Source: Dyadobacter sp. UC 10
Lineage (GTDB): Bacteria; Bacteroidota; Bacteroidia; Cytophagales; Spirosomataceae
Length of the DNA stretch: 64,000 bases
Assembly (NCBI RefSeq): GCF_008369915.1
Contig: NZ_VSRN01000001.1
Location: forward strand, 6,382,501 to 6,446,500
Direction of reading: 5' to 3'
The position numbers and the translations under genes are program-made. Shown here one piece after another: positions 180-10,446 of this stretch (position 1 is the stretch's first letter; every line of letters begins with the position of its first letter). Under the pieces are notes generated by a model. It did no database searches. It was not told where the DNA came from and saw nothing but the letters and a program-made list of their open reading frames with translations.

Positions 180-3100
180 TTACAATGTCAAGGTCAGGCC
201 CAGCGTCGCAATCCTGGGCGTCGGGGCACTGCTTTCGGGATCCCAAAAATTCCAGTTCCGTCCGTAAACTGCAGCGTTTCTCATACTAAAATAGGCTTTG
301 GCATTTTTGAGGGCCAGTTTCCCGGCCCAGGCAGCCGGAAGATTGTAGGCAACGGATATATTTTCAAGCCGGATGAACGACTTATCACGGTAAACACTAT
401 ACGAAGCACTTCCGTCACTTGAAGAAAGGCGCGCGTAATCATTGATCGCATTCGCCGGGGTCCAGTATGGCTGCGAATAGGCATTGACCCTGTCCATATA
501 GCCATTCTGGTTTTTAGCAGTGTTGAATGCACCCTTGTGGCCCCAGTAGGAATACATCATGAAAGACACGTCGAACCGCTTCAGCAATCGAAACTCATTC
601 CGGAAGGTCCATCTCAACCGCGGTTGGGTGTATCCCAGAAACTGCCTGTCCGCGTCTGTATATTTTCCATCCTCGTTCACATCCTGTAATTTGAAATCGC
701 CTGGCTTGACCCCATATTTTTTGGCAAGTTCCGCTTCGCTTTCCTGATACACTCCCAGTACTTTGATATCCCAGATCACATCCAGTGGCTGACCGATAAA
801 CCATTTATTGGTAATATCGTTGGGTTCGCGGGTGCCTGTCACGTTGCCCTGTGCGTCCAGGATATTTTCCTTGTCTCCATACAGGCTCACGATTTTGTTG
901 CGGTTTACGGAGACATTCAGGGTGGAATTCCAGGAGAAAAGCGGCCTGTTAATATTCACGGAAGTCAGATTCAATTCAATTCCCCTGTTTTGCAATTCGC
1001 CCAGATTGTCCCACACCGATTTAAAGCCGGTAACATCGGGCAGAGACCGCTGCACCAGCAAATTCGTGCTTGACATGGTATAGGCTTCCATGCTTCCGCT
1101 GATCCTGTTTCGGAACATGTTAAAGTCAAAGCCGAAATTGAGTGAAGACTTTTTTTCCCATTGCAGGTTATCATTACTCATGCGGTTCACATAAAGCATG
1201 GAAACCTGATTGAGCGTGCCTGTGGGAGATACATGGAGATATTTTCCGGTCACAAGATCTGAAATCGCTACATAGCGCCCGATATCCCGGTTGCCATTCA
1301 AACCATAAGACAATCTCAGTTTCAGATAATCAAGCCAGGGAGAACCAAAGAACTTTTCATCGCTCACAACCCAACCCAAAGCCGCAGCGGGGAAAGTAGC
1401 TCTCGGGTTCTTCTGGCCAAAAGCAGAATAGCCATCGCGCCGGAGTGAAAGCGTAAGCATATACCTACTTTTGAATGAATAGAATACGCGCGCCATCAAA
1501 GCGTCCGCCGTTCCATATTCGTCATTACTGGTGACAATAGGGTTGCCGCCTCCTCCAATGTTATGGTAGCCCAGCAGATCGCTCGGATCAAAATCGTTGT
1601 TCTCGATCTTGTCCTGCCAGCTTTGGTACTTTTCCATATTTGCCAGGAGCGTGACATCCAGTTCGTGCGACTTGAAAGTTTTTTTCCATTTGATAAGGTT
1701 GTCGATCTGCCAGTTATAGATATCCATCTGCTCTCTCTGCGCATAACCGCCGGCCTGCGCCCACTGCGGGCTTTTGGCAGATTGGTGATTGAAATAACGG
1801 TAACCTTCCAGTCGGGGAGAAAAGTTAGTCTGAAAAGTAATGCCGAAAGGCAGAGAAATCACAGAATAGAGTGTACTGATTAGCGTGTTATTGGCACTAA
1901 AACGATTGGTATAGGTCCGCGCCAACCCGGGGTTCAGCGCAATCTGATCATCCTGGGGGCTAAGCCTCAGGTTCCCTTTATCATCAAATTCAGAACCCCA
2001 GGGAGACGCATTTACCATGTAGTTCCAGGTAACGGGCACATAACCGTCGTCGCGGTTACTGAACTGGGTATTGATCCCTACTTTAAGAAATTTCGCGATA
2101 CGGGCATCCAGGTTTAGCCGCGACCGGAAAGTCCGGTACTTATCACCGACCACTATGCCCTCATTATCCAGGTAACCTAGCGATACATAGTAAGAAATGT
2201 CGTCGTTTTTCCCGGATATACTAACCGTGTAGTCTTTCTGAACCCCTTTTTGAAATACCTTTTTGTACCAGTCGATGGAACGCCCGGCGCCGTAGTTATC
2301 AATTTCTACCTGGTTCAGGTTCAGGCGGTTTAGCCAAGCAGTCGTCGGATCTCCCGTAGAACCGTCCAATGCCAGCCATTCATCCACCGACATAGAAGCG
2401 GGCAGGGATGCCGGATTGGTATATTTGAGCGGGTTTTGATTTGCATTCATGCTACGCTGGACATCCGCACGGAAAGCGAGAAAATCGTTGGCGTTATACA
2501 GCCTTTGGTGATTGGCAAGTGTCGTTATTCCGGTATTGACATTGAATGTGATCAGCGCCTTCCCGCTTTGCCCGCTTTTGGTAGTAATCAGGATCACCCC
2601 GTTTGCGGCCTTGGCACCGTACACAGCAGCCGAACTGGCATCTTTCAACACGTCAATAGTCTGAATATCATTTGGGTTGATATCGAGTAGCTGCCCGTAA
2701 TAAATAATACCGTCCAAAACGATCAACGGGTCTCCGTTTGCATTCAATGTATTGTTTCCACGAACCTGCAACGAGCTTGCAGGCTTGGCAGAAGTAGAAT
2801 AGCCGACATTAAGTCCGGCAGCATTGCCTCTCAGAATATCCTGAACGGAGGCTGGGTTCTCATTTTCAAGCCTGGCAGCGCTGATCTGGGATATAGCTCC
2901 GGTAAGGTCGCGTTTCTTCTGCGTGCCATAACCAACCACGACGATCTCTTCCAGCGTTTTATCGGCATCCTGCAAGATAATTTCAAGGCGTGTCTGGGCT
3001 TTTAGTTCGATTTCCCTGGTCTGAAAACCAACGAAGGAAAAAACCAGCCAATGTTCGGCATCTTCTAATTTCAACGTAAATGCGCCGTTTTCATCGGTAC

Positions 3101-3665
3101 TGGTTCCCTGGGTCGTACCTTTTACCATCACATTTACCCCGGTCAGGGCCTGACCATTTGCGTCCGTTACTTTCCCGGTCAACGTAATTTCAGCATCTAC
3201 AGCAGGCTGGCCGGCCGCTGAGGACACATTCCTCCCGGCGATCAGAGACTTTGTTGCAGCCGACGCCTGGTTTTGTAAGATGAGGATCTTCCTGTCCTCT
3301 ACGACATAATTGAACTTTGTCAGCTTGAAAATTTCGTCCAGTATGAATCTAAGCGGTTTGCGGCTGGCCGTAAAGGTCACCAGTGACCCGCTTTTAACCA
3401 CTTCCCCTCCGTACATGAACCGAAATCCCGTTTTGCCGGCTAGCTCCTCCAGTACTGCTTTTAAAGGAACGGCCTGAAATTTCACAGAGATCTCCCGGTC
3501 CAGAATTTCCTGTTCACCCACTGGCTGTGCATCTGGCGAGAATGCGGTGACGGTCAGGAGCAAAAATAGCACAGCAAGCCACTTCATAGTCGTTGCCACT
3601 GCAAAGACCGTTTTGACTGATAGATTTAAATACATAGATTTACCTGTGTTAGTTGTTACATACAA
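180..3665 (-). CDS. SusC/RagA family TonB-dependent outer-membrane transporter with STN domain
   Basis: This 1161-residue protein is a TonB-dependent channel of the SusC type, importing oligosaccharides or similar nutrients across the outer membrane. In order it shows a signal peptide (about 27-47), an STN domain (about 60-130), a CarboxypepD_reg-like domain (161-233), a TonB-box-like segment EEIVVVGYGTQKKRDLTGAI (239-258), a plug to about 365 and a long beta-barrel ending in TLGLTLTL. The STN domain is known in FecA-like receptors to pass a substrate signal to a FecR anti-sigma factor; the FecR gene and an ECF sigma gene lie just upstream on the same strand, so signalling to them is a sound inference. 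The first ATG is at 3665, but the internal ATG at 3635 gives a more usual N-terminus. The substrate cannot be read from this sequence. Confidence 0.93.
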   Translation of the reverse strand: MYVTTNTGKSMYLNLSVKTVFAVATTMKWLAVLFLLLTVTAFSPDAQPVGEQEILDREISVKFQAVPLKAVLEELAGKTGFRFMYGGEVVKSGSLVTFTASRKPLRFILDEIFKLTKFNYVVEDRKILILQNQASAATKSLIAGRNVSSAAGQPAVDAEITLTGKVTDANGQALTGVNVMVKGTTQGTSTDENGAFTLKLEDAEHWLVFSFVGFQTREIELKAQTRLEIILQDADKTLEEIVVVGYGTQKKRDLTGAISQISAARLENENPASVQDILRGNAAGLNVGYSTSAKPASSLQVRGNNTLNANGDPLIVLDGIIYYGQLLDINPNDIQTIDVLKDASSAAVYGAKAANGVILITTKSGQSGKALITFNVNTGITTLANHQRLYNANDFLAFRADVQRSMNANQNPLKYTNPASLPASMSVDEWLALDGSTGDPTTAWLNRLNLNQVEIDNYGAGRSIDWYKKVFQKGVQKDYTVSISGKNDDISYYVSLGYLDNEGIVVGDKYRTFRSRLNLDARIAKFLKVGINTQFSNRDDGYVPVTWNYMVNASPWGSEFDDKGNLRLSPQDDQIALNPGLARTYTNRFSANNTLISTLYSVISLPFGITFQTNFSPRLEGYRYFNHQSAKSPQWAQAGGYAQREQMDIYNWQIDNLIKWKKTFKSHELDVTLLANMEKYQSWQDKIENNDFDPSDLLGYHNIGGGGNPIVTSNDEYGTADALMARVFYSFKSRYMLTLSLRRDGYSAFGQKNPRATFPAAALGWVVSDEKFFGSPWLDYLKLRLSYGLNGNRDIGRYVAISDLVTGKYLHVSPTGTLNQVSMLYVNRMSNDNLQWEKKSSLNFGFDFNMFRNRISGSMEAYTMSSTNLLVQRSLPDVTGFKSVWDNLGELQNRGIELNLTSVNINRPLFSWNSTLNVSVNRNKIVSLYGDKENILDAQGNVTGTREPNDITNKWFIGQPLDVIWDIKVLGVYQESEAELAKKYGVKPGDFKLQDVNEDGKYTDADRQFLGYTQPRLRWTFRNEFRLLKRFDVSFMMYSYWGHKGAFNTAKNQNGYMDRVNAYSQPYWTPANAINDYARLSSSDGSASYSVYRDKSFIRLENISVAYNLPAAWAGKLALKNAKAYFSMRNAAVYGRNWNFWDPESSAPTPRIATLGLTLTL

Positions 3666-3712
3666 ACTCAGCGGCTTCTCTGGCCATTGTCAGTTTAAAA
3701 TCAGTTAACTGG

Positions 3713-3751
3713 TGCCCCTTTCTTGTTTGGCGATGAGGAGGGGCATTTTTT
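3713..3751. terminator. Hairpin between fecR and susC, possible terminator
   Basis: TGCCCCT (3713-3719) and AGGGGCA (3739-3745) can pair, and TTTTTT follows on the plus strand. Relevant transcription runs on the minus strand, where the hairpin lies just after the FecR stop but lacks a following T-run. It could attenuate read-through from sigma/FecR into susC; this is inference. Confidence 0.35.
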
Positions 3752-3759
3752 GGTTCCGG

Positions 3760-4785
3760 CTACCTCCCGCAGCCTTTACCAGTGACGGTTAGGGTTTCAT
3801 TTTGCTTTTTGAGGGTTAAATTGTTGACACGACAAACGTTTTCTAAAAATGCGACCGGATCGTCGCCAGCCTTCATTTCCCCGTAAAATACACAGTTGGC
3901 AAGATCACCTGTTGCGACGATCTGGTAAGGGGCTATTTTTTGTATGTCTCTGATTATATCTGCCAATCCAGTCCCTGCATAGCGAATATGCCCTTCACGT
4001 CGCCGTAGCAATTCATTCGCGTCGGGATACTCCCGCAGGCTAATTTTTTGAGAATCTGACTGAAACAGGGCTTGCTGAAAGGGTAATAGATTTAAGTCCC
4101 CGGAAGGTATGCTCTCGGCAGCCACAGAAACCTTTCCTGTCAGGACCGTAACCGTAGCTGACCGTTCGGCCTGATAGGCATTTATGTTAAATGAGGTGCC
4201 AAGCACACGGGTCGTTAAAGAGCCGGATTGTATCGTAAATGGACGTTTTGTATCCTTAATTACCTCAAAAAAGGCCTCACCATTCAATCTGACAGAGCGC
4301 TTACCTCCGGTGAATTCCTGCGGGTATTCGAAAGTACTCTGTGGTGCCAGCCAGATGCCGGTCCCGTCGGGCAAGACAAGTTTCTTTCGCTGATATCCGG
4401 TTGTGACCTTGCTCCATTGGACTTCATTTCCAAAAGGATCCAGCATCGTGAGAAGCGTCCAGGCCACACCGATCACCAATAAAATACTGGCTGCGTATTT
4501 AAATAATCGGGGAAGAAGCATTTTGCGGGGAGCTGCAGCAAGTTCCACTTCCCTGCCTAAACGCCTGTCGATCCTGTCGTAAATGGCATCCAGATGCGGA
4601 TGCTCCGGCAGGTCGGTTAGCTGATCGGCTTCCTGTGCGCCCCTCATTGCTTCCTCAATCAATTTTCGTAACTCCTGCTCATCCGCCACCTCAAAATGAT
4701 GAAAAAGCCGGCCTAATTCTGCCGGCATCAATGTGCCGTCCAGAAAGCTGGGGAACAGGTCGTGTATGCTTTTGGAACTTTTCAA
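3760..4785 (-). CDS. FecR family anti-sigma factor
   Basis: A 341-residue inner-membrane protein with a cytoplasmic N-terminal part of about 90 residues, one membrane segment (about 92-113, ending AWTLLTML), a periplasmic FecR domain (about 120-215, with VLPDGTGIWLAPQSTFEYP and VRLNGEAFFEV) and a C-terminal DUF4974-type domain (about 260-335). In the known scheme FecR holds its ECF sigma factor and releases or activates it when the STN domain of the partner receptor signals. It sits between the sigma gene (73 bases upstream) and susC (94 bases downstream), all on the minus strand. Length and domain order are normal for Bacteroidota. Confidence 0.93.
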   Translation of the reverse strand: MKSSKSIHDLFPSFLDGTLMPAELGRLFHHFEVADEQELRKLIEEAMRGAQEADQLTDLPEHPHLDAIYDRIDRRLGREVELAAAPRKMLLPRLFKYAASILLVIGVAWTLLTMLDPFGNEVQWSKVTTGYQRKKLVLPDGTGIWLAPQSTFEYPQEFTGGKRSVRLNGEAFFEVIKDTKRPFTIQSGSLTTRVLGTSFNINAYQAERSATVTVLTGKVSVAAESIPSGDLNLLPFQQALFQSDSQKISLREYPDANELLRRREGHIRYAGTGLADIIRDIQKIAPYQIVATGDLANCVFYGEMKAGDDPVAFLENVCRVNNLTLKKQNETLTVTGKGCGR

Positions 4786-4858
4786 AATGCTCTTTTTCTC
4801 CCTATATGCACAGCGTTTAAAAAGACACTACTCGTGTTGTAAAAAAATTTGAAAAAAT

Positions 4859-5452
4859 TTAAACAAAAATAGATAACAGGCTGAAAATGGAATCTTTATG
4901 CTGACTGAGGTACAAGCGCACACTGGCATTCGCTTTGATCAGATGATTGCTTACGGTGGAAGGAGAAATGCCCAAAATAATTGCAGCTTCTTCATAGCTC
5001 TGTCCCTGTAATTTGCAGAGATTGAACACTTGCCGCCGTTTTGGCGGAAGCTGCTGTATGGCTTTTTGAACCAGATTTTGCTTTTCACGGGAAAAGATAG
5101 CCTCTTCGAAGGCGACGAGTTCTTCTTTCATGTACCAATCAGATACCTGCTGTTGTAATCGCTTGTCCCGCGCCAATTCGCGGTAAAACTGGAAGACGAG
5201 ATTTTCGGCTACTTTATATAGCCAAGGTTTTATTGATAGCTCCGGGTCAATGGTCTGACGCTTTTCCCACAATTTCACAAAAGTTTCCTGCAACAAATCT
5301 TCCGCGACAGGCCCGGCTTTGGTCAATCTCAAAAGTCTTTTCAGCAAAGCATCAGCATACTTGTCATAAATATTCCGGAACGCCAGGTGATCACCTTCGC
5401 GAAGGCGCTCAATCAATAATTTCTCCTGTGTATTATCGTCTGAGAAATTCAT
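4859..5452 (-). CDS. ECF RNA polymerase sigma factor, Bacteroidota FecR-partner type
   Basis: A 197-residue sigma-70 family protein with only regions 2 and 4. Region 2 is seen as AFRNIYDKYADALLKRL and DLLQETFVKLWEKR (about 25-70); region 4 is the helix-turn-helix QLPPKRRQVFNLCKLQG then SYEEAAIILGISPSTVSNHL (about 135-175). It directs polymerase to promoters of its own regulon, presumably including susCD just downstream. It is the first gene of the sigma-FecR-SusC-SusD block. A promoter-like pair lies 62 bases or more upstream of the ATG at 5452. Confidence 0.93.
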   Translation of the reverse strand: MNFSDDNTQEKLLIERLREGDHLAFRNIYDKYADALLKRLLRLTKAGPVAEDLLQETFVKLWEKRQTIDPELSIKPWLYKVAENLVFQFYRELARDKRLQQQVSDWYMKEELVAFEEAIFSREKQNLVQKAIQQLPPKRRQVFNLCKLQGQSYEEAAIILGISPSTVSNHLIKANASVRLYLSQHKDSIFSLLSIFV

Positions 5453-5651: not shown

Positions 5652-5682
5652 TTTGATGGTATTCGTTATTTGTTGATTTTTG
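5652..5682 (+). promoter_or_regulatory. Promoter-like pair upstream of the Kai-locus response regulator
   Basis: TTTG (5652-5655), a 19-base spacer and GATTTTTG (5675-5682) match TTTG-N19-21-TAnnTTTG with one mismatch. Transcription would start near 5689, which agrees with translation from ATG 5706 rather than from upstream in-frame starts. Confidence 0.4.
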
Positions 5683-5705
5683 CGGCACCACCTAACCCAG
5701 CCTCA

Positions 5706-6098
5706 ATGAGTGAGAAGATAGTGCTCTTAGCTGATGATGACAGCGACGACCGTTATTTCATAAAGCAAGCCATCATATCCTCCGGCCTGAGCATAAAATT
5801 AATAGAAGCCGAAAACGGTGCAGAACTGATCGCCTTGCTCAGCCATTCAACGCTCGCTATTTCGCTTATTATCCTCGACATGAACATGCCCAAAATGAAC
5901 GGCCTGGAAACTATTTCGGAAATAAAAGCCATGCAGCGAATTGCGTCCGTGCCCGTAGTGATGATTTCTACATCCCCGAGCCAGGATCTTCTAGATAAGG
6001 CGTATAAGGCTGGCGTTCAAAGTTTTATGCCCAAACCCAACACTTTCGAGGAATTTATTGACCTGATAAACTTTCTGAATAAGCAGTTTCTATCCTGA
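5706..6098 (+). CDS. Single-domain (CheY-like) response regulator
   Basis: A 130-residue receiver domain with no output domain. The acidic pocket is seen in LLADDDSDDR, the phospho-acceptor is D58 in LIILDMNMPKMNG, the conserved Thr/Ser is in VVMISTSPS and the lysine in FMPKPNTFEEF. ATG 5706 is chosen because the receiver fold starts there; the frame is open back to 5568, but that extra 46-residue segment does not look like protein and lies over the promoter-like pair. It is 107 bases upstream of the KaiC gene on the same strand, and a histidine kinase closes that operon, so it may be that kinase's target. Stand-alone receivers of this class are usual in Cytophagales. Confidence 0.9.
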   Translation: MSEKIVLLADDDSDDRYFIKQAIISSGLSIKLIEAENGAELIALLSHSTLAISLIILDMNMPKMNGLETISEIKAMQRIASVPVVMISTSPSQDLLDKAYKAGVQSFMPKPNTFEEFIDLINFLNKQFLS

Positions 6099-6205
6099 CT
6101 GTTCCTATTGGCCCCCAAAGTTTGTATCCGGAAACGTGGGCATGATATTTTTATCCAAACCTTTAACTAAAAAATGTACGGAACAGCATTGACATTATTT
6201 TCAAG

Positions 6206-7909
6206 ATGAGTATCGAATCCTCCAATTCAAAACATACGCTCACAGTTCTTCAAAAATCCCCAACAGGGATCCGTGGTTTAGATGAAATCACGGCGGGCGG
6301 CTTACCCAGCGGCAGACCTACCCTGATATGCGGAGCGGCAGGCTCGGGAAAGACGCTTTTTTCAATGGAATTTCTTGTTCACGGCGCTAAGCTTTACAAC
6401 GAGCCCGGTGTTTTCGTGGCATTTGAAGAAAAGTCGGAAGAACTAACTGTAAATGTCGCATCGCTCGGCTACGACCTTCAGCAATTACAGGCAGACAAAC
6501 TGATCAAGCTCGACCACGTACACATCGAACGAAGTGAAATTGAAGAAACAGGTGAGTATAATCTCGATGGGCTTTTTATCCGATTAGGCTACGCAATCGA
6601 TAGCATAGGTGCGAAACGTGTGGTTTTAGACACTATTGAAAGTCTTTTTTCAGGTCTTAACAATCAGGCAATCCTTCGTGCGGAGTTACGCCGGTTGTTC
6701 GAGTGGCTGAAAGAAAAAGGCGTTACGGCGATTATCACAGGTGAAAAAGGAGAAGCTTCTTTGACACGCCAGGGACTCGAGGAATACGTTTCTGATTGTG
6801 TAATCCTGCTTGACCATCGTGTAGAAAACAAGATTTCGACGCGTATCCTCCGTATTATTAAATACAGGGGTTCAGTTCACGGAACAAATGAATATCCATT
6901 CCTGATCGACGAAGAAGGTATTTCAGTGCTGCCGGTTACTTCTCTCGGGCTTAACAATCCAGTCTCCTCGGAAAGGATCTCTTCCGGAATTCCGGCCCTG
7001 GATAAAATGCTCGGCGGTGAAGGTTTTTTCAAAGGCAGCAGCATATTGGTGTCGGGTACTGCGGGAACGGGTAAAACCAGCATTGCAGGCAGCTTCATTA
7101 ATGAGGCCTGCAAAAATGGGCAGCGATGCATTTATTTCGCTTTCGAAGAATCTCCGCAGCAAATAGTCCGTAATATGCGCTCGATCAATATCGATCTTCA
7201 AAAGCATTTGGATAGTGGGGTACTGCTGTTCAGCGCTTCCCGGCCTACCCTGAACGGACTTGAAATGCACCTGCTTGCGATGACTAAACTCATCGACAAG
7301 TTCCAACCGGCGGCGGTGGTGCTGGACCCCATCACTAATCTGATCACAGTAGGCTCTGCCAGTGAGGTAAAAAGTCTGCTTACCCGGTTAATCGATTATT
7401 TGCAGGCTGCCGAAGTCACCGTTCTGTTTACTGCCCTAGCATACAATGAAAATAAAACCGAGCAGTCCGATGAAGGTATTTCTTCACTTGTGGACGCCTG
7501 GCTACTCGTGCGTGACATTGAGTTCAACGGGGAACGCAACCGGGGTTTATATGTAATGAAGTCACGAGGCATGAAGCATTCAAACCAGGTACGCGAGTTT
7601 GTCATATCTGACCAGGGACTCAAACTGGTGGATGTGTTCCTGGGCCCCGAGGGCGTATTGACAGGCTCGGCGCGGGAAACACAACAGCTTCTTGAAAAAA
7701 CAACCGTAGCATTGCGCGACCACGCAGTATCCAGAAAAGATCGCGAGATAGAACGCAAAAGGTTTGTCCTCGAATCAAAAATTGCCTCCCTGAAAGAAGA
7801 GTTCGAATCCTTACAGGAAGATCTGAACAAAAGCTATATAGAAGAGGAGCTGAAAAAAAACATCATGGAAGACAACCGGCAAGAAATTACCCGCAAGCGT
7901 GACGACTAG
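6206..7909 (+). CDS. kaiC: KaiC-like double-domain RecA-family ATPase
   Basis: A 567-residue protein with two KaiC domains. The first has Walker A GAAGSGKT (43-50) and the paired catalytic glutamates in AFEEKSEEL (E74, E75). The second has GTAGTGKT (284-291) and FAFEESPQQ (E314, E315). In cyanobacterial KaiC the second domain phosphorylates S431 and T432; the aligned stretch here, [12 protein letters not shown], has S426 and S427, so both hydroxyl acceptors are kept, with serine in place of threonine. The C-terminus differs: after about residue 491 there is a charged, Lys/Glu-rich coiled coil in place of the KaiA-binding tail. No KaiA gene is nearby. Two KaiB genes and a histidine kinase follow immediately. 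Phosphorylation or timing activity is inference; the family assignment is firm. Confidence 0.93.
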
Positions 7910-7934
7910 CCTAACTCCTTCATTACCAATCGAT

Positions 7935-8237
7935 ATGGAAGTACAAAAGGAAGAATTATGGGAGCTCAGGCTCTATGTTGCGGGAAAAACAGCCCGCTCG
8001 GTGACTGCTCTTACCAATCTGAAAAGATATTGTGAAGAACACCTCAAGGATAAGTACGTGATAGAGGTCATTGACCTGCTTGTTCAACCGCAATTAGCGG
8101 AAGGCGATCAGATCCTGGCAATACCAACGCTGGTAAAAAAGGTACCGGAACCAATACGCAAAATTATTGGAGACCTGTCAAATGAGGAAAAAGTGCTGGT
8201 AGGACTTAATATCCGCCCAGCCGCTAAAATCGAATGA
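7935..8237 (+). CDS. kaiB: KaiB-like protein, first copy
   Basis: About 100 residues, the size of cyanobacterial KaiB. It starts [20 protein letters not shown], matching the beta1 strand LYVAGxTxxS of KaiB, and keeps the hallmark stretch [20 protein letters not shown] followed by [11 protein letters not shown]. KaiB is a thioredoxin-like, fold-switching protein that docks on the KaiC first domain. The frame is also open from a GTG at 7899 overlapping the kaiC stop, but ATG 7935 aligns with the family start; it is 25 bases after kaiC. Of the two copies here this one is closer to canonical KaiB. Confidence 0.92.
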
Positions 8238-8551
8238 GCGAGTCGTCACAACAGTTTCTCGAAGCGGAAAGCGAAGCGGCCAACCATTACAGGCTCCGGT
8301 TGTTCATTACCGGTGCGTCAGCCAATTCGGTCCGCGCGGTTATTAATTTGAAAGAAATTTGTGAACGATACATCAGGGATCAATATACACTGGAAATCGT
8401 AGATGTACATCAGCAAAGATCAATTGCTGAAAAAGAACAGCTTATCGCGCTACCGTTACTGGTGAAGATAAGTCCGCTTCCAGAAAGAAGGCTCATAGGA
8501 GATATGTCGGACACGGCGAAAGTTTTGAAAGGGCTCGGAATTCCCCAATAA
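8234..8551 (+). CDS. KaiB-like protein, second, divergent copy
   Basis: A 105-residue KaiB-fold protein overlapping the first kaiB by four bases (ATGA), so the two are probably translationally coupled. It keeps [20 protein letters not shown] at the start and [20 protein letters not shown] further on, but has lost the Pro-Thr pair of the usual PTL motif and ends early after [10 protein letters not shown]. It shares the fold but clearly differs from its neighbour, suggesting a distinct partner or role, for example one copy for KaiC and one for the kinase. That division of labour is inference. Confidence 0.9.
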
Positions 8552-8555
8552 TGAG

Positions 8556-9863
8556 ATGAGTATAGTGAAGACTTACGATGAACTGATCAGAGAGAACCAG
8601 GAGCTTACAATGCGGCTGGAAGAAGCCACAGACACCATCACGGCCATTCGGACGGGCCAGGTGGATGCTTTGGTGGTCAATGACGGGGACCAGGGACTTC
8701 AGCTATACACGCTCAAAACGGCCGATCAGACCTACCGCGTTTTTATCGAGAAGATGAATGAGGGAGCCGTCACTTTGAATGAAGAAGGCATTATCCTGTA
8801 TTCCAATTCCATGTTCGCAACCATGGTGGACGCGCCGCTTTCAAAGGTAGTAGGCTCCCCGTTTGAGAATTTTGTAGCCGAAAGCGCAACCGCTGCCTAT
8901 AAGCACTTATTCAACGATGGCTGGAAACAAGACTCGAAAACGGAGCTGGCTATCAAAAAAAATAACATACTCATTCCCTGCCAATTGTCTGTCAACACCT
9001 TGCAGTTGGATGAAGGCCCGTCGCTAAGTATTATCGTCACCGATCTTACCTTTCAAAAAAACGTTCAGCATCTGCTCAAAGAAAATAACAGGCGGCTGGA
9101 AGAAATAAACGGAGAACTTGAAGCAAGTAATTACGACCTGCAGCAATTCGCGTCTGTCGCTTCTCACGATCTTCAGGAGCCGTTGCGAAAAATACTTATA
9201 TTTTCTACAATGCTCAAAAACAAGCATGAGGCCGAATTGCCGGTCGAAAGCCAGAAGCATTTGGAAAAGATCATTACCTCTTCACACCGAATGCGGACGA
9301 TGATTTCTGATATTCTTAATTATTCCCGGCTGTCTACCGAAGCAGGTAATTTTGAGCAGGTCAATCTGAAAGAGATAATTAATGAAGTTCTCGAAGATTA
9401 TGAAATACTCGTGAACGAAAAGAACGTTAAGGTCAAAATCGACGAATTCCCGCTCATTGAAGCCAACCGCGCACAGATCAAACAGGTGTTTCAGAATCTG
9501 ATCAGTAATTCCATCAAGTTTTCAAAACAGGACAAGCCACCGGTAATAGAAATTGCATGGGAAGCCAATCATGAATTACAGACAGCATCTGCTGATCACA
9601 ACGCAGTTTGCAATATCGTCATTTCTGACAATGGAATCGGCTTTGACAAGGCCTATCAGGAAAGGATATTCTCTTTGTTCGAAAGATTGAATACCAAGGA
9701 AAAATACGAAGGCTCCGGTATCGGCCTCGCGATCACCAAGAAAATCCTGGATAAACATAATGGCACTATTTCCGTGGAAAGTAAAGAAGGTGAAGGCGCA
9801 CGGTTTACGATCTGCCTGCCTGTTCGTCAGGAGAGGCGTACTTCACCAGAGATCAGCTTCTGA
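8556..9863 (+). CDS. PAS-domain sensor histidine kinase of the Kai-like operon
   Basis: A 435-residue soluble kinase beginning four bases after the second kaiB. An N-terminal helix (MSIVKTYDELIRENQELTMR) leads into a PAS domain (about 60-180, RVFIEKMNEGAVTLNEEGII), a short coiled coil, the HisKA H-box FASVASHDLQEPLRKI with phospho-acceptor H204, and a HATPase domain with N box NLISNSIKFS, DNGIGFDKAYQE and the GSGIGLAI G2 box. There are no membrane segments. Unlike cyanobacterial SasA it has no KaiB-like sensor domain, so any link to KaiC would need another contact. Its place at the end of the operon suggests it is the output or input kinase; the response regulator at 5706 is the nearest candidate partner. 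Confidence 0.93.
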   Translation: MSIVKTYDELIRENQELTMRLEEATDTITAIRTGQVDALVVNDGDQGLQLYTLKTADQTYRVFIEKMNEGAVTLNEEGIILYSNSMFATMVDAPLSKVVGSPFENFVAESATAAYKHLFNDGWKQDSKTELAIKKNNILIPCQLSVNTLQLDEGPSLSIIVTDLTFQKNVQHLLKENNRRLEEINGELEASNYDLQQFASVASHDLQEPLRKILIFSTMLKNKHEAELPVESQKHLEKIITSSHRMRTMISDILNYSRLSTEAGNFEQVNLKEIINEVLEDYEILVNEKNVKVKIDEFPLIEANRAQIKQVFQNLISNSIKFSKQDKPPVIEIAWEANHELQTASADHNAVCNIVISDNGIGFDKAYQERIFSLFERLNTKEKYEGSGIGLAITKKILDKHNGTISVESKEGEGARFTICLPVRQERRTSPEISF

Positions 9864-9960: not shown

Positions 9961-10446
9961 ATGGACAAATTACTCTTATTTCCCAGTGCATTTAAAAGAA
10001 ACGGCCTGCTGATGATCGCAGTCGGCATGGTTGGTTTGGCCGTGGCCAGTCAGGAAGGACTGATCAATGTATACCGGCTCCTGTTACCCGGCGACACCCT
10101 GTCCGACGGATCCTATCCCTACCCTTCCGATTTCTGGCAGAAAAACATAATTCTGGAATACACCTCGATTGCCCTGATGGTTTTGGGACTATTGTTCTTT
10201 TTTCTTTCAAAGGAGCGGGACGAATTTTTCTACAAGATCAGACTGGAATCTATCCAGTTCGCAATCCTATCGCAACTGCTGGTTGCAGGCCTGCTGTATT
10301 GTTTTTTCTATTTTTCAGGTAAATACCAGATGGAAAACACATTCACCGCAATTTTATCACTGAGCTTCGCAGGCTTCTGGATCACCTATATAGCGCGCTA
10401 CTATTACATCGTTCGGTTTCGGGCCGAAAAAGACTCACTGAATTAA
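9961..10446 (+). CDS. Hypothetical four-helix membrane protein
   Basis: A 161-residue protein with four clear hydrophobic segments (about 14-38, 61-82, 95-118 and 124-148) and an extracytoplasmic loop rich in Pro, Tyr and Ser between the first two. I do not recognise a named family. The XRE regulator starts seven bases after its stop, so the two are almost certainly co-transcribed from the promoter at 9905-9935. Membrane protein plus small XRE regulator pairs are common in bacteria, and the regulator often controls its own operon. Function unknown. Confidence 0.85.
   Translation: MDKLLLFPSAFKRNGLLMIAVGMVGLAVASQEGLINVYRLLLPGDTLSDGSYPYPSDFWQKNIILEYTSIALMVLGLLFFFLSKERDEFFYKIRLESIQFAILSQLLVAGLLYCFFYFSGKYQMENTFTAILSLSFAGFWITYIARYYYIVRFRAEKDSLN

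Follow-up and report, generated by a model that had tools for sequence, protein, structure and literature searches.

How a Kai system that lacks KaiA is driven, and how it passes its state on to the cell, is the question raised by a five-gene locus of Dyadobacter sp. UC 10 (Bacteroidota), located in a 64,000-nucleotide stretch of contig NZ_VSRN01000001.1 (positions 6,382,501 to 6,446,500; here called the window, and numbered from its first letter). The locus encodes a stand-alone receiver, a KaiC, two KaiBs and a PAS histidine kinase. We find that the two KaiBs are, by their phylogeny, members of separate families that are predicted to rest in opposite fold states, and that the kinase begins with an element which, in the genomes searched, is almost confined to kai loci. 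With a probability of about 0.6 we take the operon to encode a KaiBC timer or energy-state switch of the KaiC2 type that has an output kinase of its own. Its genes are as follows.

5706..6098, + strand: stand-alone receiver gene, 130 amino acids counted from the ATG
6206..7909, + strand: kaiC, KaiC2 type, 567 amino acids (747 bits against model NF006799, cut-off 408; 640 bits against solved chain 8dba)
7935..8237, + strand: kaiBa, the first-position kaiB, 100 amino acids from the ATG (Pfam KaiB), predicted ground state
8234..8551, + strand: kaiBb, the second-position kaiB, 105 amino acids (Pfam KaiB), predicted fold-switched thioredoxin-like state
8556..9863, + strand: PAS histidine kinase, 435 amino acids (Pfam)

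An earlier note on this DNA had described the locus as a KaiA-less operon of these five genes, and the open reading frames and Pfam matches bear out both the order and the gaps (107, 25, -4 and 4 nucleotides between receiver, kaiC, kaiBa, kaiBb and kinase). Its coordinates hold nearly throughout, except that the position it gave for the receiver start, 5652, has no start codon, the ATG lying at 5706; in the Pfam scan the receiver and the first KaiB carried a few extra codons upstream. The KaiC motifs it had read (both Walker A motifs, both Glu pairs, Ser426-Ser427) are intact, no KaiA match is present in the genome at E <= 1, and the PAS kinase stands, as it had stated, in the place of a KaiB-fused SasA, Pfam recognizing PAS and no KaiB-like domain in the kinase. 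The 6.9 Mb genome contains no KaiBs beyond the two operon copies, both of them free genes, and one double-domain KaiC, the remaining KaiC matches being weaker and partial.

The two KaiBs are recognized by Pfam at 94.7 bits (KaiBa) and 83.2 bits (KaiBb; cut-off 27), and both fall below the models of cyanobacterial KaiB, KaiBa reaching 97 against 145 for TIGR02654 and 101 against 110 for NF006798, and KaiBb 74 and 76 against the same two values. The nearest solved chain to KaiBa is the KaiB of Rhodobacter sphaeroides (93 bits). In a tree of 272 KaiBs a single state change divides 119 first-position from 119 second-position copies with either of two programs, the edges dividing the position groups having values of 58-95 in the Shimodaira-Hasegawa-like approximate likelihood ratio test (SH-aLRT); the same division is found in a smaller tree (87 versus 87, SH-aLRT 87-93), in which the KaiBs of R. 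sphaeroides and Sinorhizobium fall on the KaiBa side. KaiBa is the better conserved (mean identity 0.695 versus 0.501, and the more similar of the two in 99% of pairs of loci), and within a single locus KaiBa and KaiBb have a mean identity of 45%. On this phylogeny the two KaiBs are two old, separate orthologous families with a fixed order, and a recent kaiB duplication is ruled out by the tree. Pairwise scores had hinted that KaiBb might be an orthologue of the Legionella KaiB, which the tree does not support: the Legionella pneumophila fragment (4kun) lies outside both paired KaiB clades, on a long branch. Thermosynechococcus vestitus KaiB-4 (8ubh) was outside the tree set.

With the AF-Cluster recipe, KaiBa was modelled in the ground state (predicted local distance difference test, pLDDT, 70) and KaiBb in the fold-switched thioredoxin-like state (pLDDT 66), and we predict that the two rest in opposite fold states. 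Among the 50 matches listed for the KaiBb model there is no ground-state KaiB, which excludes nothing by itself. The three switch prolines had to be rejected as a discriminator of the two families, both of which keep them (100, 100 and 100% of 119 KaiBa; 100, 100 and 96% of 119 KaiBb; both window copies). A KaiB pair in one operon with opposite predicted folds would constitute a natural experiment on fold switching.

There are also departures from the paired arrangement. At L045 and L050 (genomes G130 and G234) the place of kaiBb is taken by an 82-residue frame with no detectable KaiB similarity, which shares four bases with the gene on either side, and the KaiCs there are short (488 and 513 residues). 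At L067 and L073 (G184 and G357) a KaiB lies between a 396-residue kinase and a 917-residue hybrid kinase with a receiver, with no kaiC in the 10-kb stretch. A 39-kb plasmid of Hymenobacter tibetensis (L107) carries a lone KaiB that the tree places with KaiBb; its neighbours are a response regulator and a PAS protein, and the stretch has no annotated kaiC.

The second feature that the operon shares with its relatives lies at the front of the kinase, which is laid out as follows.

8556..8759, + strand: kai-linked N-terminal element, kinase residues 1-68 (AIRTGQVDALVV from residue 30, then the lead into PAS)
8742..9050, + strand: PAS domain, kinase residues 63-165 (Pfam)
9138..9338, + strand: HisKA domain, kinase residues 195-261 (Pfam)
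9468..9827, + strand: HATPase_c domain, kinase residues 305-424 (Pfam)

The domains score 29.5 bits (PAS_9, cut-off 27), 48.6 bits (HisKA) and 88.9 bits (HATPase_c), and the kinase has the motifs SHDLQEP (the H-box) from residue 203, NLISNS from 314, DNGIGF from 358 and GSGIGL from 386. The first 60 residues have one match in the host's own genome (E <= 1), versus 58 matches to HisKA (E <= 0.001). The gene 3' of the last KaiB commonly opens with this element, whose consensus is LRxRLxEAEETLxAIRxGEVDALVVxGxxGxQVFTLxxADxxYRxLxExMxEGA and which runs into the PAS domain. Searching for it by a strict regular expression proved too narrow, recovering 98 of 136 loci (88/118 with two KaiBs, 9/17 with one and 1/1 with more), and was superseded by a 60-residue query and an alignment (A6).

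In the genomes searched, the element occurs almost only beside kai genes. It is present once each in 72 of 222 genomes of the host's family, and these are the same 72 that have a KaiB above the cut-off (kinship among the genomes being ignored in this comparison), the element match lying 6-33 nucleotides after the KaiBb match. One of the 72, from the same genus (G424, locus L083), has lost kaiC and has a broken KaiB, and the receiver and the element-bearing kinase are still adjacent there. Alignment A6 finds 33 matches in 392 Bacteroidota genomes, of which 29 are strong and all at kai loci (27 within about 80 nucleotides of KaiB, two at 281 nucleotides), and four are borderline, partial and away from kai loci; the element was not found in nine other KaiB-positive Bacteroidota genomes, in two of which (G177 and G217) the KaiB match is itself cut short. 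The 26 genomes or records behind the named loci yield 26 matches in 25 of them, 25 mapped by hand to the kai locus and one elsewhere (G628); no match was found in G626, which has a kaiC without a KaiB behind it.

What follows the element is variable. The C-terminal parts of 20 output proteins scanned comprise HisKA, HisKA with a receiver, HisKA_2, HisKA_3 with or without a receiver, and HWE kinases, as well as GGDEF-EAL (L172), HD (L149 and L169), a sigma-54 activator (L182) and PAS alone (L138). Because the front is constant, the back variable and the element co-occurs with kai genes, this arrangement suggests that the element and PAS front may read the state of KaiC-KaiB. For the question of how KaiA-free Kai systems signal outside the cyanobacteria the element would be a concrete, deletable candidate for the coupling, present in many phyla and before several kinds of output. 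SasA homologues outside cyanobacteria are described by Schmelling 2017 (PMC5520375) as having no KaiB-like domain, on which ground stimulation of such kinases by KaiC is argued in that paper to be very unlikely.

The input side has a published answer, because a close homologue, the R. sphaeroides system, works without KaiA and has a C-terminal tail in its place. The features of the window KaiC that bear on this comparison are the following.

6332..6355, + strand: CI Walker A motif GAAGSGKT, KaiC residues 43-50 (motif inspection)
6425..6430, + strand: CI catalytic Glu pair, residues 74-75 (motif and alignment)
7055..7078, + strand: CII Walker A motif GTAGTGKT, residues 284-291 (motif inspection)
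7145..7150, + strand: CII catalytic Glu pair, residues 314-315 (motif and alignment)
7481..7486, + strand: Ser426-Ser427, aligned with Ser413-Ser414 of R. sphaeroides KaiC
7676..7906, + strand: C-terminal tail, residues 491-567, matching the R. sphaeroides KaiC coiled-coil tail up to residue 548 in the alignment

The KaiC ATPase domain of Pfam matches in two stretches (367.9 bits), which correspond to two KaiC ATPase domains, and the model of the cyanobacterial clock KaiC, TIGR02655, is not reached (352 bits, cut-off 546). By its sequence the window KaiC is KaiC2-like, having the double ATPase domain, the Ser-Ser phosphosites and the C-terminal extension, of about 50 residues, of that group; two Ser and the absence of an R-linker in CI are among the KaiC2 traits given by Schmelling 2017 (PMC5520375), and the tail is assigned mainly to KaiC2, the Ser-Ser group, by Pitsawong 2023 (PMC10076222). 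Among solved KaiCs the nearest in sequence comes from R. sphaeroides (8dba), which aligns over residues 16-548 with the tail included; the listed chains from outside R. sphaeroides reach at most 374 bits. Six of the eight residues of the R. sphaeroides allosteric path are kept (S413, S414, W419, Y436, V449 and R450, corresponding to S426, S427, W432, Y449, V462 and R463 in the window KaiC, numbered by hand from the alignment), L438 is replaced by M451, and position 421, Val in the paper, is Leu in both proteins by our hand count.

Pitsawong 2023 (PMC10076222) reports that R. sphaeroides KaiC autophosphorylates without KaiA, that its tail forms a 12-helix bundle and that removal of the coil nearly abolishes dephosphorylation, that KaiB binding raises its ATPase activity 7.5-fold, and that the ATP/ADP ratio determines its state. 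The window sequence is compatible with an hourglass of this type: the two systems have in common the KaiC tail, the Ser-Ser pair, the absence of KaiA, a KaiBa-type KaiB and a downstream kinase with element and PAS. They differ in that R. sphaeroides, a phototroph, has a single KaiB and an HWE-type kinase on a plasmid (the order in strain KD131 is kaiC-kaiB-HWE kinase), whereas the window has KaiBb in addition and a HisKA kinase. Synechococcus KaiABC-SasA-RpaA shares the KaiB and KaiC families and the catalytic motifs; the window differs from it in having no KaiA, Ser-Ser, the C-terminal tail and a PAS kinase without a KaiB-like domain by Pfam. Rhodopseudomonas palustris, likened here by published gene order, has the same order kaiC-kaiB-PAS kinase, with one kaiB named where Ma 2016 (PMC4794148) gives it. 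Two kaiB genes with kaiC, as here, are named in passing as kaiCBB in Thiodictyon syntrophicum, where they occur with a diguanylate cyclase (PMC5944118); in our set an uncultured Thiodictyon (L172) has the GGDEF-EAL protein behind the same element. The operon class is thus already known (De Luca 2011; Ma 2016; Schmelling 2017; Pitsawong 2023). What is new are the KaiB families with their fixed order, the prediction of opposite states for them, and the element linked to kai genes; these are general features beyond this single window, and our searches of the openly licensed PMC literature did not turn up a description of them.

How far does the arrangement extend? The Bacteroidetes are credited with only KaiB2- and KaiC2-like proteins in the pertinent part of Schmelling 2017 (PMC5520375), and a Dyadobacter species paper describes KaiB and KaiC as rare among Bacteroidota (PMC11573002). 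We find KaiB above the cut-off in 38 of 392 Bacteroidota genomes, and within the genus Dyadobacter 37 of 48 genomes have a KaiB match. Forty Bacteroidota genomes with a KaiB match comprise the window's own, 35 that gave 37 stretches, and four that were dropped (G177 and G217 for a truncated match, G363 and G364 for scores under the cut-off); a further 30 stretches were drawn from 74 KaiB-matching genomes of the family. KaiC exceeds the score limit in 59 of 67 Bacteroidota stretches, and within 2.5 kb downstream of kaiC, where KaiBs were counted, 46 of the 59 have exactly two, 11 have one and two have none.

Across phyla we considered the best 80 of at least 563 loci by likeness to an alignment (A5, with Pararhizobium at the top), a set that samples close KaiC2 relatives only and has some redundancy, since L072 and L157 are one and the same contig and certain Dyadobacter loci may be counted twice. 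Exactly two KaiBs are present at 71 of these, more at one (L124), one at seven (two of which, L113 and L156, are close to a contig end) and none at one (L160, Ignavibacteria). By NCBI ranks the 80 belong to Pseudomonadota, Bacteroidota, Thermodesulfobacteriota, Methanobacteriota (Methanoperedens), Planctomycetota, Myxococcota, Rokuibacteriota, Nitrospirota, Balneolota, Ignavibacteriota, Verrucomicrobiota, Acidobacteriota, Chloroflexota, Cyanobacteriota and Lentisphaerota, with two unassigned. The kaiC-kaiBa-kaiBb cassette is seen in archaeal Candidatus Methanoperedens (L116, L119 and L146), and at L105 a plasmid of Pararhizobium qamdonense (615 kb, typed as conjugative) carries the cassette with two KaiBs together with a hybrid kinase.

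The earlier note had made conservation of the gene order beyond this strain a test of its reading, and had inferred a different input and output wiring in a non-photosynthetic lineage; it had not remarked on the KaiC tail, on the separateness of the two KaiB families or on the element of the kinase. The order kaiC-kaiB-kaiB-kinase is indeed kept far beyond the window strain, so that for these four genes the reading survives its test, but the receiver is variable or absent; the wiring does differ from that of the cyanobacteria, but it is not confined to one non-photosynthetic lineage, R. palustris and R. sphaeroides being alike and many phyla sharing it. By a count made by eye in 15 other same-genus stretches with the operon or a remnant of it, the receiver is upstream of kaiC in seven, absent in six, downstream of the kinase in one and upstream of the kinase after kaiC loss in one, and five further Dyadobacter-named loci have an upstream receiver in one (L168). 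A fixed five-gene order that includes the receiver is ruled out by this variation, and the receiver is an optional neighbour, loosely tied to the operon. The window receiver (Response_reg, 76.5 bits) has DDD at residues 10-12 from the ATG, the phospho-acceptor Asp in ILDMNMP from 56, ISTS from 87 and the Lys in MPKP from 108.

The reading that we prefer starts from what the sequence holds: gene content, motifs, tail, gene order, two KaiB families and the co-occurrence of the element with kai genes. The biochemistry of KaiC and KaiBa is borrowed from R. sphaeroides. KaiC would have its A-loop held open and autophosphorylate at Ser426/Ser427 without KaiA, and the coiled-coil tail would accelerate dephosphorylation. 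KaiBa would rest in the inactive ground state, switch fold slowly and bind the CI ring; once bound it would accelerate ATP hydrolysis and permit KaiC to dephosphorylate as ATP/ADP drops, making KaiC an hourglass reset by the energy of the cell and not a free-running clock. We further infer that the N-terminal element and PAS read the state of the KaiC-KaiB complex and drive the histidine kinase, together with a free receiver in some relatives. KaiBb would rest mainly fold-switched, and most likely acts on KaiC, as a standing binder or a competitor of KaiBa, and/or helps to present KaiC to the kinase.

Several points weigh against this reading. The host is not known to be phototrophic, and a daily ATP/ADP cue is not a given. 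Both KaiB models are of middling confidence, with 11 sequences each, and AlphaFold2 was trained on solved structures, presumably including KaiB; because the switch prolines are kept, KaiBb may still switch its fold. Pfam finds no PAS domain at the thresholds used in three of the 20 output proteins (L105, L110 and L133), and the tail is not universal, the KaiC of L055, which has two KaiBs, being just 476 residues long. The one-KaiB R. sphaeroides and Sinorhizobium also have an element-bearing protein, and therefore KaiBb is not required to link the element to KaiC. The receiver is missing from many relatives, so that it is only a candidate partner of the kinase.

There may be no timer at all: the operon could sense ATP/ADP or stress, with KaiC phosphorylation informing the kinase of the cell's energy charge as it changes; this we regard as a genuine possibility, short of probable. 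The cassette hosts include, by record name, the non-phototrophs Pedobacter, Mucilaginibacter and Pseudomonas, which count in favour of such a sensor, as do Synechocystis KaiC2-KaiB2, reportedly believed to be clock-independent, and the Legionella kai operon, reportedly linked to stress. R. sphaeroides KaiC phosphorylation, moreover, tracks ATP/ADP, and the ATPase is described as lacking temperature compensation (PMC10076222). However, kaiC of R. palustris aids fitness in rhythmic environments (PMC4794148), and the KaiB fold switch needs hours (PMC11551320), which would impose slow dynamics in any case.

KaiBb could alternatively be a sensor of the SasA type that has become a separate protein: fixed in the thioredoxin-like fold, it would compete with KaiBa for CI and directly control the adjacent kinase, the job of the fused N-terminal domain in SasA. 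Such a role would be compatible with the timer or energy-state switch that we prefer, and we think it rather unlikely. KaiBb is a free, unfused gene that scores 32.6 bits against the SasA model NF006800 (cut-off 342), generic thioredoxins score about equal to SasA against the KaiBb model, one-KaiB operons still keep the element-bearing output, and among the Bacteroidota frames there is no KaiB-kinase fusion, the longest KaiB frame above the cut-off having 199 residues. An ordinary kaiC2-kaiB2 operon with a generic PAS kinase and a recent, meaningless kaiB duplicate is improbable. In its favour, the operon type is described, and kaiCBB named in a genome paper (PMC5944118); against it, the second kaiB belongs to a family that split off long ago (119/119 split by one change, 45% within-locus identity), and the kinase differs from a generic one in that its first 60 residues match once (E <= 1) in a genome with 58 HisKA matches.

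Beyond the operon as a timer or energy-state switch with its own output kinase, we tentatively entertain the doubtful but broader idea that the KaiC2 operon is a timing cassette that can be moved between hosts, with KaiBa as the slow fold-switching timer, KaiBb as a permanently switched, thioredoxin-like partner, and the element and PAS as a dedicated reader of the KaiC-KaiB state placed before varied outputs: several types of histidine kinase, c-di-GMP enzymes and a sigma-54 activator. If so, the one-KaiB R. sphaeroides system would be a reduced form of a common two-KaiB type.

The neighbours of the operon complete the picture of the locus. At 9961-10446, 3' of the kinase, is a gene for a 161-residue protein with no Pfam match; of the same-genus stretches, L082 alone was found to have it at this position (256 bits). 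Upstream, at 180-5452 on the - strand, the genes look, judged from their translations, like those of an outer-membrane receptor, a FecR-like protein and an extracytoplasmic function (ECF)-type sigma factor.

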